Part shown: positions 39,594 to 50,000 of the stretch, one piece after another
Position numbering within the stretch: the first letter of the stretch is position 1
Layout: every line of letters begins with the position of its first letter
Assembly: GCA_026075535.2 (NCBI GenBank)
Contig: AP026542.1
Coordinates: 3,782,001 to 3,846,000, forward strand
Direction: 5' to 3'
Source: Tricholoma matsutake
Taxonomy: Eukaryota > Basidiomycota > Agaricomycetes > Agaricales > Tricholomataceae
DNA length: 64,000 nt
Made by a program: the position numbers and the translations under genes
The notes under the pieces: model-generated
What the model saw: the letters and a program-made list of their open reading frames with translations, nothing else
Databases searched by the model: none
Told to the model about the DNA's origin: nothing

Positions 39594-39923
39594 GTGATTT
39601 GACACACTCACTCTGCTTAGTTCTATTCTTGGCCCTACTGCTTTTGTTCTTTTTTTCGTCACTTCTGCTTTCTGTTCTCGTGAGGCATGCCATCACACGT
39701 GAAGTCTGCACCCTGCTTTGCTTCCCAGTTACAGCTCTCGAGTCTTCAGTTTTAGCACTCAGTTATAGTCTCAGAACCTCAGTCTTGCAGCTATGGCAGT
39801 TTATTTGTACAAATATTATTTTCCGCATGTGACGGAGTTTTCCGTGCGTGCTTAGATCAGACACCTCATGAGATACTGCACAACATTATTCACTTGTAGT
39901 TGGTATGTATTACTCTGCATAAT

Positions 39924-40933
39924 TTACAAGGCACCCATCCACCATACAAGCTCAGTGATTCCCTGTGTCAACAGCCATTCCTCCTCCTCAAACACCTCGT
40001 TGTTGTATGCCCCTTCAACAGAGTTGCCATGGCAATGGCTGCACATTCTAGGAATGGCAGCCTTCGTGAACTCAACCATTGCTCCTTGGCAGGACTTGGG
40101 ACCATCAGGGTAGAGAAGATGCTTAGCATAGTAATGCCACCAAGCCTTCTCCCATTCAGCCTCGCAGACCTTGGTCTGGTCACATTGCCAGGCGAAGACC
40201 ATAGGTGGAGCATAAAATGCTATGCTGATACAGTGGACCTCAACTTGCTTTTGAGTTTGTGAGAGAATGTAGTATGGGTAGCTACCCATTTCCTCAGCTT
40301 CGCCAGGAGTGATACTATTCAACTCCTGAGCCATCAGATTATGAAAGGAAGGACCAACCCACTGGGTAATGTCAAACTGTCAAGCTAAGCAAAGTTGAAG
40401 AGCTGAGTGAAAATCTGGATGAGTGGGGAGTGCATTGATTGCATAGGCACAACCTGGCACAATGCGAAAGAAGTTTGAAAGTTTGAGCACAGCGAGAAGA
40501 TAGTCGAGTGTCAGATTGATCTGCTCATGGCTGTACATCATCATATTGGCCAAATTCAGCTATACTCGACAGGATTCAGAGACTTACAGATCATACAGAT
40601 ACTGCAGAAGAAAATTGAACTCTTCACTTTGCACTTCAAAGTGAACAGGATTGCTGTCAACAGTGCCTTCCATTCCATCCACTGGTTGTGGTACTTGAAA
40701 CATGTCACCCCAAAGGCCAGATTTCCAGATCATCATAGACCTATGTAGATTGTACAATGTAAGGCCACACTTTGTAAACACAAAAGTTTGCCATCAGCCA
40801 CAGCATAGATCTGAAAAAGTCAAGTATGTGTACTTACACAAATAATAATTGAGCCATCTGTGAAGTAGTATTTATCATGGTGAAATGGTGCTTCTTCTGA
40901 GCCTCCAGGAGGGCAAGGTGAACAGATGGACAT
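39924..40933 (-). pseudogene. BTB/POZ domain protein carried by transposon E
   Basis: The ATG at 40933 opens MSICSPCPPGGSEEAPFHHD, then the BTB core KYYFTDGSIIIC. An intron (GTAAGT...CAG) is followed by HRSMMIWKSGLWGDMFQVPQ and EEFNFLLQYLYDL. The C-terminal part typical of basidiomycete BTB proteins follows: LDYLLAVLKLSNFFRIVPGC, ALPTHPDFHSALQLCLA, QFDITQWVGPSFHNLMAQEL, then a Cys/Trp-rich segment (WQCDQTKVCEAEWEKAWW, IPRMCSHCHG) to the stop at 39924. BTB proteins act as dimerising adaptors, often for cullin-3 ligases or chromatin. A junction near 40575 and a TAG at 40381 (LA-stop-QFD) break the frame, so this copy is probably inactive. It starts 123 bp from the transposase ATG. Confidence 0.75.
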
Positions 40934-41056
40934 GGTGGTTGAGTTGTGACAAACAGACAAGTGACCTTTAGGCATCCCCAAAAAACTGACCTATCAGGTA
41001 GCCCCATAGTACCACCTTGGAGCAATTTTCCACACAATTTTTACCCTCTACTTACC
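40934..41056. promoter_or_regulatory. 123-bp bidirectional promoter region of transposon E
   Basis: The only DNA between the BTB ATG (minus) and the transposase ATG (plus). It must hold both promoters and both leaders. It has C/A-rich tracts and CCACACAATTTTTACC but no clear TATA box. Confidence 0.5.
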
Positions 41057-43027
41057 ATGTCCTCCCCTGCTGCTCAATTCCCTCTCCTGCCAGACCTTTT
41101 TGATGGTGGTGACTGGTCACCAAATGTTCTCCAGGCCCACTCAATCCTGAGTTATGCTTATCTTCATGCATCTGAAGCCTTCCATGCCAGCGAGAGTGAT
41201 GCACACCGCCTATGACTCCACTCTGATAGGCTTATAAACAGAATGATCCCAATCCTTGAGGCAATGGAACCAGAGGTGCTAAACCATGAGTGGCTGAAAT
41301 CCGCAGCAGAGTCCATTGCTGGTTTGTATCTTGAGCTTGAAGGGGCAGCACTTGCTGTCGACAATGTGTAGGTCATCATATCTGCTAGTCAATTTACTTA
41401 AAAATGTCATGACGAGCAAACTTCAGTGAAACTGTGACCCTCAAGAAGCCAACCATAGTTCATGTAGGGTGGATTGGTCGAGTAGGTCGGCCAAGAAAGG
41501 AGATCTCTCCGGACTGGCTGCAAGAGTCAATGGCATCTGGGAGGAGAATCACATTCAAGAAACTAGCAGAGCTGGCAGGAGTCCATCGGCACACACTACA
41601 GTTTTACCTTAAGTGGCACAGTGTATATGAAAGATTTTGTTCCATTTCGGATGCTGATCTAGATATACTGGTCAAGACATTCAAATCCAAGAAGCCTGCA
41701 TCTGGTCTTACCAACATGATTGGCTTTTTGCGATCACATGGCCTGCGAGTTCAGAAGAGAAGAGTTCAGCTCACATTATGGCATATAGATGGTCTTGGTC
41801 AAGTACTTCATAACCATGCAGCAATTGATCATCAAAAGTACACCGTCCCATGATCCAACTATCTGTGGCACTTGGATGGCCACCACAAGCTGATAAAGTG
41901 GGGCATTGTGATACACGGAATTGTTGACAGTTATTGCCATACAGTATGTTGAGGATCTTTATCAGCGGCTGTTCATTGATGTAGTGATGATTGACTCAGA
42001 TAACAGGGCTAAAAGCAAGTAGTAATAACAAAGCAAGTACAGTTCTGAAACTATTCCTGCATGCAGTTGAGACCTATGGCGTTCCATCACGAATGTGTGG
42101 TGACCGAGGTGGAGAAAATATTGAGGTTTCCATTTGGATGGTAAAACATTGAGGTGCATGGCAGGCCTCATTTATGTGGGGCTCGTATGTGAAATCTATT
42201 TATATTTCCACATCACAATTAACAGAATCAAAATAAAAGGTCGACACATAATACTCGCATTGAGCGGCTTTGGGTTGAGGTGGGCACTCAGTTTGCATGG
42301 TGATGGCGAGGGTTTTTTTTGTGGCTTGAATGGCTTCATGGATTGGATAGTGGAAAACCTGAGCACCTTTGGCTTTTGCATACACTCTTTCTCAAGGATA
42401 TCAATGATGACTGCACTGAATTCCAAAATGAGTGGAACCATAAGCCACTTTCAGGGACAGGCAATCACTCACCGATGGTATGTGGATCTTCTCAGCTGTG
42501 TTCTCAAGCTGAATTATTATACTTTTTCTGTATAGGACCGACAATTTATGAGTGATAATGAACATGGTGTTGAAGAGGATCAGCCAGGCATTCACCCCAA
42601 TGTCCTGAATGAGTATTATGGTGCAGATCAGCCTGATTGGGCAACATTGATGGCCTTTACAGATGCCAGCAACCCACAGGAAGAAATTGAAGTCAACGCA
42701 AGGATTGCAGAAGATCAAGCCAATGACATCCGACATCCTGGTGCCAATGTTCCACCAGAATCAAGCCCATTTACAACAGTGCAGGAATCCATATTTTTTG
42801 ATGCACTGAATGAAACTGTGAGACTCAATATCATGCCAAATGGATATGGTGTAGCTCAGCAAGAATGGCCAAGGGGCGAGTATCCAACATGGGAATCAGT
42901 TTGTGTCAGATCCAGCTGGAAGACAATCAATGTAGAACTACCCTTTGACATATGTTGGCCCCAGGCAGTAAAATGGGTTCAAGGGCTGGATTGCATGACA
43001 CAATTAATGGTTGAATTAGACTTGTGA
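41057..43027 (+). pseudogene. Integrase-core (rve-like) DDE transposase of element E
   Basis: The ATG at 41057 starts MSSPAAQFPLLPDLFDGGDW; stops at about 41212 and 41369 break the N-terminus. A helix-turn-helix type region follows (VGRPRKEISPDWLQESMASG, LAELAGVHRHTLQFYLKWHS, FLRSHGLRVQKRRVQLTLWH). The catalytic core has the first Asp in LWHLDGHHKLIKWGIVIHG. An intron lies at about 41945-42008, then ASSNNKASTVLKLFLHAVET and the second Asp in CGDRGGENIEVSIWMV. The Glu candidate is in NTRIERLWVEV at about 42255, followed by LWLLHTLFLKDINDDCTEFQ. A second intron (about 42479-42536) leads to an acidic C-terminus ending at 43027. It would catalyse excision and insertion of E. Stops (for example after WMVKH, 42151) show it is decayed. 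Confidence 0.78.
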
Positions 43028-43659
43028 ATACACATAGTCCACACATCCTGAAAGAAACCAATTGATACACTAAAAGACCTGAAAATAACACAGGAGTATG
43101 AGTCAACACAGTAGATCACACCATCAAAAAAAAAGGTTGACACATCTTGTTCCCAGTTTATTACACCTTCACCCTATCTACCCTATCCACAATGCCAACC
43201 TGCAATGGGAAGATCAAAAGTGAAGATGGGGTTCTCGATGGTTGCCCTTGCACACGGTACATTCCTGATTCTAACCAGATGACAAGTGGACCACAAAACT
43301 GTCGAGACTGTCGCCACTTTGAGAGTGCACATCCAACAACTGGTGGTGCTCCAAACAGTGTCTTGGGTGTTCTTGAGTCACTGAAGACTTGAATTGACAC
43401 TGTCCGGAATTCCAGTGGACCAAAGGTTTCCCAGGCTGCTTCAGAGGAGGAGGCTTGACAAGAAACCAATGCTGGATTTTGTAAAATGAATAGCAGCAGC
43501 TCTGATACACATGTGGGGTCTACAGGAACTGTGCATTGTGGGGGAGCAACAAAGTACCAAGTTTGTGTTTTTTGTGTCATAGTAAACTCACCGAAACCAA
43601 CTTAATGTTGTTGCCAATTGAAGAAAAGCCCTCAGAAGGTCAAGAAGAAGTCCAGATCT

Positions 43660-45155
43660 TAGTGTTTAAAGGTCCGGTCATAGGACCGGGAAAAGACTGA
43701 AGACCGAACTGAACTGACACATGTCCGGTCCATTTTTTGGTTGCGGTTGCTTACTTTCGAGCTCAGTCCGGTTGCCAGTTGCCTTGTTTTGAAAATATTT
43801 AAAAACCGTTACAAAACTGGTTGCAATCGGTTGCAACTGGTTTTCTCGCAGTATATACGATGTACTATGTACCTGCTTAGAAGTAAGAAATTATAACTAA
43901 CATAAGTACTAATCATAACTATTTATCATATGGTTACACTACATTACACTACAATTACACGCAGTGGGACAAGTCGGGGTAGTTATTTGGCGGGTTCTTA
44001 TATACCCTGTGGCTGTGCACAGACCATGTGGTCATGTGCTCCTGAAAAAAAGAAAAGTGGCACCATTGCCAGATGACTCCCATGACAACAAACAACTCCC
44101 ACAACTCCCATCCCATCCATCCACCACCACCATCAACACATGCACACCACCTGCCCCAAAACCACCGCCAATGAACGAATGCAAAGCAGACAGCCCAAAC
44201 GATGACCAGTGTCGTTTGGGCCATCGGGTATCTTTTTTTGTTTAATCTTATTTCAATTACTAATAATTCTTTTTGTAGTGTCTCTTTTGCAAACGACGTC
44301 GCCTAGACATGACGCAACGCACCTGGGACCTCACTGTACCCATGCCCTATGTCACTGCTGCAAGCCTCTGCTCACAGGGTGGCAACGGGTCCCATTTCTG
44401 GACAACGACAACGACACAACAACATGGCACCAACATGCCGCCGCACTGCCATGTCACAGCACCACAATGCCACCGTGCTGCCACGTCACAGCACCACCAG
44501 CCCACCTGCAAGCCACTGCTCGCAGGGGTAGATGGAGGTGCTGACGACCATGGGGGGACAACAAACAAGAATGTGAACAGGGAGGATGACAGGGAGAAGA
44601 CAACAACGACAGCAAAAATGGGAGGGTGGCGACAGGGAGGAGATGATGAATGCCAGCACGGGGATGACAACATGGGGATGACGGATGACAACATGAGGAT
44701 GACAAATGACAATGCAGGGACAATGAACGATGGGGCTGACCATAACAAATACCCGGGACAACATACGACACCCTGCTCTCACTGCAAACGCGAGTCTGTG
44801 GGTTCTTTTTTCTTTTTCTTTTCTTTCTTTCATTGTGATGGATGCACCTTACAGGTGTTGTTTGGTCTTTTTTTTTTTTCTTTCTATTAGCAACACCCCA
44901 CCGCTGCGAGCACCTGCTCGCAGGGTGTGTTGTAATTAGTTGTATTTAATATATAGTAAAATTAAAATATGTATTGAAAATTGCTGGAAAAACTGGTGGC
45001 AACCAGTTTTTCGAGGGCAACCAAACCGACTAGGACTGGTCCTAGTCAGTTCGGTTGCAGTTTCCCTAAGTTGGGCACCAGTTGCAACCGGTTGCGGTTG
45101 CCGGTTGCCCATCTTGGGGTCAAAAAACCAGACCGAACCAGACCTTAAAACACTA
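43660..45155. mobile_element. hAT-like element, copy 1 (1.5 kb) with 8-bp target duplication
   Basis: Ends TAGTGTTTAAAGGTCCGGTC and its imperfect complement ending CTTAAAACACTA, flanked by CCAGATCT at 43652-43659 and 45156-45163. The TAGTG terminus and 8-bp duplication fit hAT. Subterminal regions carry many GGTTGCAACCGG/CCGGTT motifs. The interior carries module copy 3 and no transposase. Confidence 0.9.
44193..44935 (+). other. Hairpin-intron-exon module, copy 3
   Basis: The hairpin GCCCAAACGA...TCGTTTGGGC (44193-44221) is followed six bases later by an intron 44228-44278 (GTATCT, TTACTAAT, TTGTAG). The exon contains GTCGCCTAGACATGACGCAA, related to CCTAGGATGACGACCC in copy 2. Three GAGC/AAGC-loop-GCTC-CAGGG motifs lie at about 44351, 44503 and 44888. 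The ATG at 44309 opens a 193-codon Thr/His/Asp-rich frame, probably not a real protein. Confidence 0.5.
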
Positions 45156-47037
45156 CCAGATCTGAAGAGAAATGGTCTAGAGTCGGAAGTATTGTTATAA
45201 TTCCTGATTACTATGCCAAGGTATGTTATCCACCTATTGAACATTGGGCTGAATCTGAACTGGGATCAGCATAGGCAAGCACTAGAACAGCAAGATGTGA
45301 ATACAGAAGCAGGCATATTCTCCATCCCGATGCCCACAACCAACCAAATCCAAAGCTACAGAGATAATAATCTTGCCGCTGTGTCCAATGGTGAGAAGGT
45401 TGGTGGGGAGGCAGATCACCTGGCATTCAAGGGGTCATGGTCAAGGTTCTGGATCGATATGTGGCTGGGTTGGGCACTCCCAAAAGTGATGATGTGGTTG
45501 TGGGAGAATGACCCAAAGAAGAATGGGGCTGTACATGGTAATGCAGATGATGATGGCAGCGATGACTCAGATTCCAAATATCCTTGGGTACTCCTTGTCC
45601 ATGAGCGAACCAAACTCATCAAGTTCAAGAAAAAGGGTTTGATAACAGGGGATGACCTTTACACAGTCAAGCATCCAAGGGGCAAACACTGGGTCAATCA
45701 GACTGTGTATCTTGGTGAGTAGCACTTGATTGTGATAGTTGATTCCTTGCACAACTAATTGTCGCATGTCGTTAGCCTCAAAATATGTTATCCCTGAGTC
45801 TGTCTGGCAAGATGGAAATTGGCAAACCAACGAGCCTCTGAACACTGCTAACGATGGAGCCCACTCTGAAGACTTGTCTGGTTTCTCCCCGCCTCCCATG
45901 TCAATGATTTTGGATATGGAACCTGCTTCTGCATCTACCACTGGAAAGGAAACATGGCAAGTGTTAACGCCAAGAGTATTGGATGAAGGTGGGGCCGACT
46001 TTTTACTGGCTGATCAAATTGAAAGTGAGTTATGTTGTATCTATCTCCTGAAAGTGCTGATTGTTGATCCTTGCAGTTGCAGCTGGAGAAGGCCCTGGGA
46101 TTTCTTCAGCAGGGGCAATTGAAGAAGATATCACTGCGACAAAAGGTATGATCAAATGAACATTGGCAAGGTCCCTGCTTATTGCAAAAGCTGCAGATAT
46201 TCTATTGTTCAGTAGTTACCCTCCCAACTTAGTCACTAAGGAGACCCCTGAAGTTACCAACCCCATCTCATATGTTTCAACTGGTTCAACTTCAACCCTC
46301 TCTGCCATGACTCCCTCCAGTTCCACGGCTGTGTCTGATTTTGCATTATCGGGTGCTGCAACACCATCAGTCTATATACCACCCCTCCCCATGTTGTTGC
46401 ACTACCCTGATGAACTTTGTGTCAAGCTCCTATGGGAAAAAACATCTTCAAGCTGAATCATCAGTTGATTCAGGTTTCATAGACCCCAGCCACCCAAAGA
46501 ACAATCCTTGGAAGAAGAGAAAGGTAGAATAAACTAGTTATCTCATTGATGAGTCATTGTGTGGCATCGACTATTGATTTGAAGTCTTTTTTTCCATTCA
46601 CCCCTTTGACCATCTATTGTTTGCATACTTTTTTTGATGACTTGTTTGATCAGTCACTAATTTTTGCTTGTTACTAACACTCATTTTCAAACCTCATATG
46701 CATCTTCTGTCGTTACAAAGTTAGCTTAGTAAAATTGTGCCATTCTGGCTAATGTCATTTACTTGTTCATCACGTTTGAGGGAGTGGAGGGGTCAGGCAA
46801 GATGCTGGAGAAGGGATTACACAACATAGGCCTCACGTTAAGTTGTGTGCAAGGCATCTGATCCAGTGCATGTGGAAAACTCCATTGCATGCGGAAAATA
46901 ATATTTGTACAAATGAACCGCCATATGCAGCTACCTAGTACACCAGCCACACAGAATTAAGTAGTACCAGTACCAGCACCAGTCCTCTCCAGCAACAGTT
47001 ATAGTTACCAGCACACCAGTCCCATATCTCTATCACC

Positions 47038-50000
47038 ATGCCTGGTCCAGGACAAGGCAAACAAAACCACAAGAAAAAATGGCATGAGACCATGCACCTG
47101 AATGCAAATATAGCAGCGGTAAGCGCCGTAATGAATGCAGACACTCTAACTGTGAGCACGGAACTCAAAACTATGGCAACAACAACTGAACTACCTACTA
47201 CAAGCATTGTCACAACAACTACAGCAAAGCCAGACACAAACAAAGCAATGGACAATGCAAATGACGAGATGTGTGTCGACACAGCCATGGCCGTGTCATC
47301 AACAAACCACATCGACTTACCACTACAACTGTTCACTTACACATATGAAGAGGTACAACAACTACTAGACGACGCACAGCTCGAAGGATGGCAAAAAGGG
47401 TTTGAAAACTGGAAAGAAAAGAGGCCAAGAAGAGGGAAAAGAAGACGGCTACGATGAGGGATATGAAGAAGGAAGCAGGATGTTGACAGAAGGCTACAAG
47501 GAGGGGTATGAAGCAAGGGAGAAACTAGGTCAGGAGAAAGAAGAGAAATCACTGAGGGAGGGACACCTGGAAGGCTACAAGCTCAGGATGCAAGACAGAG
47601 AAAGAGACAAATGACGAAAGTGGCTAGCAGAAGGACATGGCCATGGGCTCTGCCTCTCTATGGCAGCCCATGCACATGAACTCCTTCGGGGCACCATTAT
47701 CTTGGAGGAGGCTGAAGTACAGACCAAAACGATGACCTGGACCAATGTTAACACCCAGGCAACCCCCACCACCAATGAAACGGCATCCCAGACCAATGAT
47801 AACCCTGAACATCAGTGTGCAGCCCTACAAATGGAGCCACCCGATGACAATGACACCACTGCGCTGAAAAGTGTATGCGTCGACTTCAGCACCCAAGCTA
47901 CACCCCAAACCACTGAAACGGCCATGCAAACTGTTGTAGAACACCCCAGCACTCCCCTCGATGTTGCCACATCACTGCCGACGACGCCATCAACCACATC
48001 AGCACTGCCATCATTGTCAACACTGTCAACAACAACCACAATGATGATTTCCTCTGCCCCAAACCTACCCTCAGCACCTTGAAAACAATGCTATATGCTG
48101 CCGACTAGACCTACAAACCCCCAGCAAGCTCTGCAGCCCCCCTGTTCAGACCTGGAGCCACCCACTGCCAGCACCACATCATCACCAACAATGGTGGTGA
48201 CTCCTGCTGCAACCACCTCTGTGACGACTACTAGGGTGATGACTAGCTGCCAGACAACCGCTACCACCTCATATACTAAGTGCCAGGCCCCAAACAATGT
48301 ACATAAATGGTCTATAGCCCAACAAACAACGTTACAAGAGGACGAGCAAATGTGCTCGTCAAAACATGTTGTTTACTCAACAGAACAACCCTGCTCACCC
48401 CAGGACTCTAAACAAAAGCCCAGAACACCTCCCAGCATCCCCCATCTCATCCCACAGACCCCCGTCAAAATCATTGAACCACCTGGTGAAACTACCATGT
48501 CATTATCAACGACCCCTGCTCCCCCACTCCTGCCACTAGTGTTTAAAGGTCCGGTCTGTAGGACTAAAAAAAAGACTGAAACTGAACTGAACTGGACCGA
48601 TCAGGACCGGACTAGTGGTCTATTTATGGACCGGTCTTTTTCAGTCCAGTTGCTGGTCTTTCATTTTGAGAAATATAGTAGGACCAATGAAAAACCGGTT
48701 GCGACTGGTCTTGGGTTCCAATGTATGTTGGACCTTACTCCCACACATATTTACTTCATTTTCGGTCCCTGGATCATCAAAAACGGTCAAGAATTGGTTG
48801 AGATATGACCAAAAACATTTTTGTACGAGTATTTTGTTGTATCAGAACAATTTTGATTGCATTGCTTATTACCTGAGCTATAATTTTTTTTGTACAGCTA
48901 TATGACATCATAAAAGTAACAACAACACACCTAATCATCTGTACCATGGGATTTTATTCATATAACAGCCCAAATGAGTGCAACTACAAACTATAAATTA
49001 CAAACTACAAACTATAAATTACAAACTACAAACTGCAACTTGAATGCATGTCCTTTTGGTTTTGGCCATATCTCAGTCAAATCTTGACTGAATTGCTTAA
49101 ATGTTGGATCAGTCTATGGAGCATTACAATCTCTATCCATGAATATAATATATATGAGGTGATGGTCATATTTGTTGAGATACATATGGGTTATTTGGCA
49201 CAATAAATTTTACAACAAAAGACCAGTCCGAACCAGTCTTTTTTTGGTCCATGGACCGATTAGGACTGGTCCTAAAGGGTCCGGTTGTGGTCCTCCAATA
49301 TCTGGGTTGGTCCTAGACTGGTTGTGGTTGCCGGTTGCCCCATTTGGAAGTCAAAAACTGGACCGGACTGGACCTTTAAACACTACCTGCCACTCTCAGA
49401 ATGAAACCTGGCACCCAAAAATCAACAGCACACGCTCCCTGGATCATCGGTGCTCCCCCAGCTCATTCCCATAACCCCTGTTCAACACCCTGAGCCCCCC
49501 ACTGCCCCTACTATGTCACAGACGATGATGCCAATATCCCCCTGCATTTCCATGTCATCTATGACCCACCTACATTGTCTACACACAGGGAAGCTCCCCA
49601 TTTGCTGCCTGCATCCCCATATGGGCCCATATACCCCAGCACACCCCAGCTTGACCCTAAACAAGCCATTTCGCCACTTCCCAAATGTTTCAACTGGGCC
49701 AACAACACCGTATCATTACCTACTGCCCCCAGCACCCTGCTGCGAGATATCTCTGGTCTGAAGACAGGCCATCTACAGCCATTTGGAACACTACGATGAT
49801 GGACAAGACAACGATGAGCACCCCTGCAATATCTACCATCCTGAATTTTTTTAAATTCAGCTCTGCCTTCTCTCGTTCCACCTCAACCTTTTATTACCCA
49901 ACATCATCCCTCTGGTATTGGACCAGGACAACCCGTTGTTATTATGCCATTTGGAGTAGCACCTGCTCCTGCTTCTCCTGTTCTGAAGCTAGACTGGGAT

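Follow-up and report, generated by a model that had tools for sequence, protein, structure and literature searches.

The stretch analysed here, called the window throughout, comprises 64,000 nucleotides of the Tricholoma matsutake genome (C5:3782001-3846000; the searched genome holds 161,040,721 bases on 13 contigs). It contains a mobile element of 7,134 bp, bounded by terminal inverted repeats (TIRs) at positions 39792–46925, which carries a transposase gene, a companion gene and, head-to-head with the transposase, a putative BTB/POZ gene. We consider it highly probable that this is a dead cut-and-paste transposon of the IS3EU/GingerRoot type of mushrooms, with three genes, in which the pairing of BTB gene and transposase is of long standing.

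Boundaries and genes of the element

The two TIR arms are 52 nt each and 90% complementary to each other; the left arm lies at 39792–39843 (plus strand, beginning TATGG) and the right arm at 46874–46925 (minus strand, ending CCATA). They are directly enclosed by a target-site duplication (TSD), TGCAGC, at 39786–39791 and 46926–46931. Joined to each other, the flanks of the element align without a break across the junction at C1:10124107-10124416 (95%) and C5:581215-581538 (87%). The C5 site (L069) holds TGCAGC once, and the C1 site (L066) has one mismatch in the TSD. The original prediction had proposed TIRs beginning TATGGC and a 6-bp TGCAGC duplication, and the complementary arms and the empty sites bear this out. 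Since these paralogous sites are uninterrupted, the whole 7.1-kb unit, BTB gene included, was inserted in one event and moved as one piece. The element lies in a repeat, because the joined flank matches many places in the genome (at least 51, including both flanks in the window itself, with 40 of 205 candidates scored). An open reading frame (ORF) with a Lys/Arg-rich end is present in the right flank (47005–47457), and the sequence flanking the element is repeat sequence.

Fungal IS3EU elements are marked by TAYGG..CCRTA ends, TIRs of more than 30 bp and a 6-bp TSD (PMC12730594), and IS3EU elements in general by TA..TA ends and a TSD of usually 6 bp (PMC10045372). The element in the window has TA..TA termini in the TAYGG..CCRTA form, a TSD of 6 bp and TIRs well above 30 bp. 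Together with the rva_4 (PF24764) domain of its transposase, these sequence features fit an IS3EU/GingerRoot-type DNA transposon.

The transposase gene (41057–43027, plus strand) contains introns and is decayed by in-frame stops. Its read-through model matched the Pfam family rva_4 (PF24764) with E=1.1e-49, and candidate catalytic codons were picked by eye at 41875–41877 (D), 42102–42104 (D) and 42262–42264 (E). A database search gave 176 related proteins at E≤1e-5; among the 120 best of these, the top four, from Mycena and Favolaschia, are 46–52% identical to it. The BTB gene (39924–40933, minus strand) carries an in-frame TGA and a frame break. Its stop codon (TAA, 39926–39924) and the left TIR end are 132 bp apart, and its ATG (40933–40931) is separated by 123 bp from the transposase ATG (41057–41059), in agreement with the predicted distances of about 130 bp and 123 bp. 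The spacer at 40934–41056 is presumed to be a promoter region common to both genes; three further loci of this genome (L017, L018 and L019, see below) have comparable spacing.

Assignment to the mushroom type of BTB/POZ proteins is made through relatives and through profile comparison with host BTB proteins. An alignment of three element BTBs against two host BTBs with hhalign gave a probability of 98.2 (E 6e-14, 113 columns), and a hidden Markov model (HMM) of the element BTBs matched the host BTB L060, itself a match to PF00651, at 1.8e-9. The copies in the elements have a C-terminal C...W..WW motif in common, the columns of which are absent from the L060 model. Searching protein databases with the element BTB gave four matches among 3032 candidates. 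One of these, the T. matsutake protein P0002, is 97% identical to the L019 segment and near-identical to the BTB protein of that locus; P0004, which stems from a different data set, is also closely related (68% across 46% of the query). A profile search of the PDB with the BTB alignment gave no matches at E≤1.

The window copy is dead, because all three genes contain in-frame stops and the BTB gene has a frame break in addition. The observed/expected CpG ratio of the element is 0.25. Values between 0.14 and 0.93 occur in 4-kb blocks across the window, and depletion is therefore common to much of it. CpG-biased C-to-T hypermutation has been reported for T. matsutake (PMC6980582), and the depletion of the element is as expected from it.

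The companion gene (43192–46532, plus strand), delimited from reading frames and by alignment to P0031, a Coprinellus gene model, starts with the ATG at 43192, has a Cys/His motif in its N-terminal part and ends in NPWKKRKVE (KKRKV codons from 46512, stop TAA at 46530–46532). The KKRKV-type ending that had been predicted is thus present. The prediction of three genes enclosed by the TIRs holds in that transposase, companion and BTB gene are all there, but all are decayed, and the companion has its start at 43192 and is interrupted by an insertion at 43660–45155. Alignment with P0031 gave z 9.4 for its N-terminal piece, a score that none of 500 shuffles reached, and z 10.6 for the piece after 45201, a score reached by none of 300 shuffles. 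In P0031 the companion part stands behind a transposase, and both pieces match there in the same order, which supports a single gene and the same gene order in this one other species. The N-terminal piece is also resembled at L017 (z 5.8) and less so at L019 (z 3.5), and P0006, from a different data set, is closely related to the companion (65%). When the companion parts of P0024 and P0031 served as tblastn queries, the window was not matched at E≤0.01, and P0054 had no pairwise similarity to the window pieces. P0024, a Lanmaoa model, has a Cys-rich part behind its transposase; it aligns weakly or not at all with the window pieces (z 2.2 and -0.4) and was therefore not used as proof of the companion. 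The weak match of its companion part in L018 (19% identity) was likewise set aside. The structure prediction for the companion was poor, with a mean predicted local distance difference test score (pLDDT) of 38.

The nested insertion measures 1,496 bp and is flanked by the 8-bp duplication CCAGATCT at 43652–43659 and 45156–45163. Its TIR, TAGTGTTTWAAGGTC, matches at 14 of 16 bases and is presumably of the hAT type; no recognised transposase is encoded, and we presume that this hAT-like element is non-autonomous. Among 58 identical 8-bp pairs spaced 1.3–1.7 kb apart, it is the only one with matching TIRs. The CpG ratio of the nested element (0.63) is higher than that of its host element (0.25), consistent with a later insertion.

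Recurrence of the BTB–transposase pair

All counts of recurrence refer to the T. matsutake genome. The transposase segment of the window found four loci at E≤0.001, namely the window itself and one each on C13 (L017), C12 and C3, and a BTB gene stands head-to-head with the transposase at all four. The window BTB segment matches itself and the copies on C3 and C12, each adjoining a transposase in head-to-head orientation, and the L019 BTB segment matches those on C3, C13 and C12. The C13 copy was also recovered (E=8e-22, on the strand opposite to the transposase) by an element-BTB HMM built without it. Genome searches with the two element BTB segments, from the window and L019, gave matches at these four loci only. 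The distance between the start codons is 123 bp in the window, 83 bp in L019 and at most about 160–165 bp in L018 and L017, where the codons themselves are uncertain. Among the four loci the transposases are 48–66% identical and the BTBs 28–62%, and L017 and L019 form the closest pair by both genes (66% and 62%). Gag and pol fragments, which we take to be Copia-like, lie on one strand at 200–1500 and 6289–6762 of L018 and flank the BTB–transposase unit, as if it had landed in a retrotransposon.

The main claim of the original prediction, that the BTB gene belongs permanently to the element, is supported by the presence of this gene in head-to-head orientation at four of four loci despite transposase identities of only 48–66%. 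A host gene that merely lies beside the transposase, or that was caught once as neutral cargo, is barely credible to us. The BTB belongs to a host-type family and all four copies are decayed, as such an origin would allow, but the empty site shows that it moved with the unit, the orientation recurs at every locus, and alignable coding sequence kept at 28–62% protein identity is hard to explain without past selection. The reading as a chance neighbour was rejected on the recurrence and the empty site. Host BTBs behave differently: L060 has seven matches in the genome, itself included, and none of the seven is at an rva_4 locus. A genome search with the Pfam BTB model gave 15 matches, again none at an rva_4 locus; it is a weak control, as it missed all four element BTBs too.

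The pair is embedded in a larger set of related transposases. At least 32 rva_4 loci (one below the cut-off) are present in the genome, comprising the four BTB loci and 28 others of a different clade. Of these 28, 24 were examined. The view extended about 1.5 kb to either side of the match at 21 loci, two of which, L055 and L056, were also read over 7.5 kb, and the remaining three (L070–L072) were covered by stretches of 4.5–5 kb. No BTB match better than E 0.8 was found at these 24 loci, where the short flanks may miss a more distant gene. L055 (1855–2685, minus strand) and L056 (887–2257, minus strand) have a mutually related head-to-head gene instead, which has no Pfam match above the cut-off; hits to this type of gene occur in eight of the 21 short-flank loci, these two among them. 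A divergent accessory gene upstream of the transposase therefore seems to be a common plan, of which the BTB gene is one version.

The TIR pattern of the window (up to one mismatch) occurs at 58 sites in the genome, i.e., both window TIRs and 56 elsewhere. Ten pairs face each other 771–817 bp apart (e.g., C8:6831990-6832765 and C12:4504584-4505396) and presumably represent a family of miniature inverted-repeat transposable elements once mobilised by this transposase. Longer facing pairs of 4.6–6.9 kb occur on C8, C9 and C10. Pairs without a BTB gene do occur; they are short (about 0.8 kb) apart from a few longer ones, and by coordinates none of them holds an rva_4 match; they are therefore non-autonomous and do not speak to whether the BTB gene belongs to the element. 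Pairs about 15 kb apart on C1 and C2 were set aside, since their right-hand stretches hold ORFs that we take to be retrotransposon-like.

One or several origins of the pair

A transposase tree was built from 24 rows, 20 chosen from the 120 listed database proteins and four partial rows from this genome; rows of other species carried the BTB label "unknown" and were not counted as lacking the gene. The window transposase falls with sequences from Favolaschia and Mycena (100/99), and the other three loci lie outside this group. L017 and L019 group together (94/99), and L018 groups with Arthromyces, Collybiopsis and Marasmius (88/98). Among the tree rows, at least two changes of the BTB label are forced by the starred branches and three occur on the tree itself. 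The four BTB-carrying transposases thus represent at least two, probably three, lineages. With separate transposase lineages, the pairing is either old or has arisen repeatedly at one slot.

The second option would mean independent captures, in which the slot upstream of IS3EU transposases repeatedly takes up host genes and took up a BTB gene more than once. We regard this as unlikely, if far from negligible. It would explain why the four loci occupy three places in the transposase tree, with at least two label changes forced, and why a different gene occupies the head-to-head position in another rva_4 clade (in the 8 of 21 short-flank loci mentioned above). The BTB tree gives no supported split between element and host BTBs either, and the host BTBs L060 and L061 stand in one poorly supported group with those of the elements. 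Against repeated capture stand the same gene family, the same orientation and the same tight spacing each time, and the scores of the three longer element BTBs, which are 169–199 with each other and 42–144 with the two host BTBs.

Several observations weigh against the preferred explanation. Firstly, concerning descent, the groupings of L018 (88/98) and of L017 with L019 (94/99) are unstarred, the BTB tree (9 rows) sets element BTBs apart from host BTBs in 28% of 200 bootstraps, and the partial L017 BTB scores 38 (z 1.5) with that of the window and 111 with the host protein L060. From these scores and the BTB tree, a single shared origin of the BTB is unproven. Secondly, concerning the protein, the window copy gives no match to Pfam BTB PF00651 (cut-off 20.5 bits), L018 and L019 reach 13.3 and 20.0 bits, and the AlphaFold model of the relative P0002 is poor (mean pLDDT 47). 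Thirdly, TIRs with a TSD were found at one of the four loci, scans of L017, L018 and L019 giving no convincing pair; these three copies are interrupted or old. Lastly, all four copies in the genome are decayed and give no sign of present function, the recurrence is that of one genome, and the rva_4 scan is a lower bound (58 matches, with 150 of 188 candidates scored).

Possible role and comparison with known systems

The BTB domain is a dimerising adaptor. If both divergent genes use one promoter region, the BTB protein would have been made along with the transposase and may have served the element as such an adaptor. The original prediction suggested that a BTB adaptor could influence transposase stability or silencing. 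It might help against host silencing or protein turnover by bringing in host factors, among them perhaps a Cul3-type ubiquitin ligase, to which role we give not quite an even chance; that the BTB gave the element no benefit at all appears improbable. A structural role is also conceivable, in which BTB dimerisation would join the two transposase-bound ends or tether these to chromatin, and the Cys/His companion would be the DNA-binding partner. The set of three genes (the Coprinellus model, too, has the companion after its transposase) and the close divergent start codons, which suggest joint expression, would suit such a role. It is opposed by the absence of BTB matches from the examined stretches of 24 of the 28 other rva_4 loci and by the rust IS3EU elements, for which TET/JBP and an alpha-kinase are described, so that a BTB is seemingly not needed across the superfamily (PMC12730594). 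We hold the structural role possible and the somewhat weaker candidate, and favour, by analogy with the TET/JBP of rust elements and short of proof, a role against silencing or turnover.

In a wider reading, a head-to-head BTB would be ancestral to a broad mushroom IS3EU clade (Mycena, Favolaschia, Marasmius and others) and maintained there by selection as a core gene, giving these elements a ubiquitin-ligase or chromatin adaptor of their own against silencing, and part of the mushroom BTB family would have travelled in transposons. As a whole this is doubtful at present. Its prediction on the pairing of BTB and transposase can be checked in published mushroom genomes, and the pairing could bear on the origin of part of the mushroom BTB family. 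If separate lineages did retain a BTB next to the transposase, this would amount to a new type of accessory gene, acting as a protein adaptor or by recruitment of a ubiquitin ligase.

In the open-access literature searched, we found no account of a fungal transposon with a BTB gene within it; Repbase entries were outside this scope, and a description may exist elsewhere. With IS3EU/GingerRoot elements, a Repbase superfamily, the window element shares the TA..TA termini (TAYGG..CCRTA), the TIRs of more than 30 bp, the 6-bp TSD and, judged by the PF24764 match, probably a transposase of the integrase-type DDE class. It differs in its head-to-head BTB gene, the word BTB occurring zero times in the main text of PMC10045372 and PMC12730594. 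The host mushroom BTBs (L060 and six relatives) resemble the element BTBs in the BTB domain and in a region following it that can be aligned, but none of the seven is at an rva_4 locus, and the C..W..WW columns of the element BTBs are missing from the L060 model. Vertebrate proteins of the ZBTB11 type also combine a BTB with an integrase-derived domain, as a host fusion protein and not as a separate gene in a mobile element (PMC12062965). The nearest parallel described is in rusts, where IS3EU elements carry TET/JBP between the transposase and an oppositely oriented alpha-kinase gene (PMC12730594). Accessory genes thus lie within the TIRs in both cases, one of them opposite to the transposase, whereas those of the rusts encode a TET/JBP dioxygenase and an alpha-kinase. 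Such cargo was considered for the window element and rejected, as no Pfam match to either was obtained among the window proteins scanned. TET/JBP has been proposed to aid escape from silencing (PMC12730594), and such accessory genes in fungal IS3EU elements point to a contest over silencing. The window element is of the IS3EU type, a known kind, and its BTB gene appears to be a new accessory gene of such elements.

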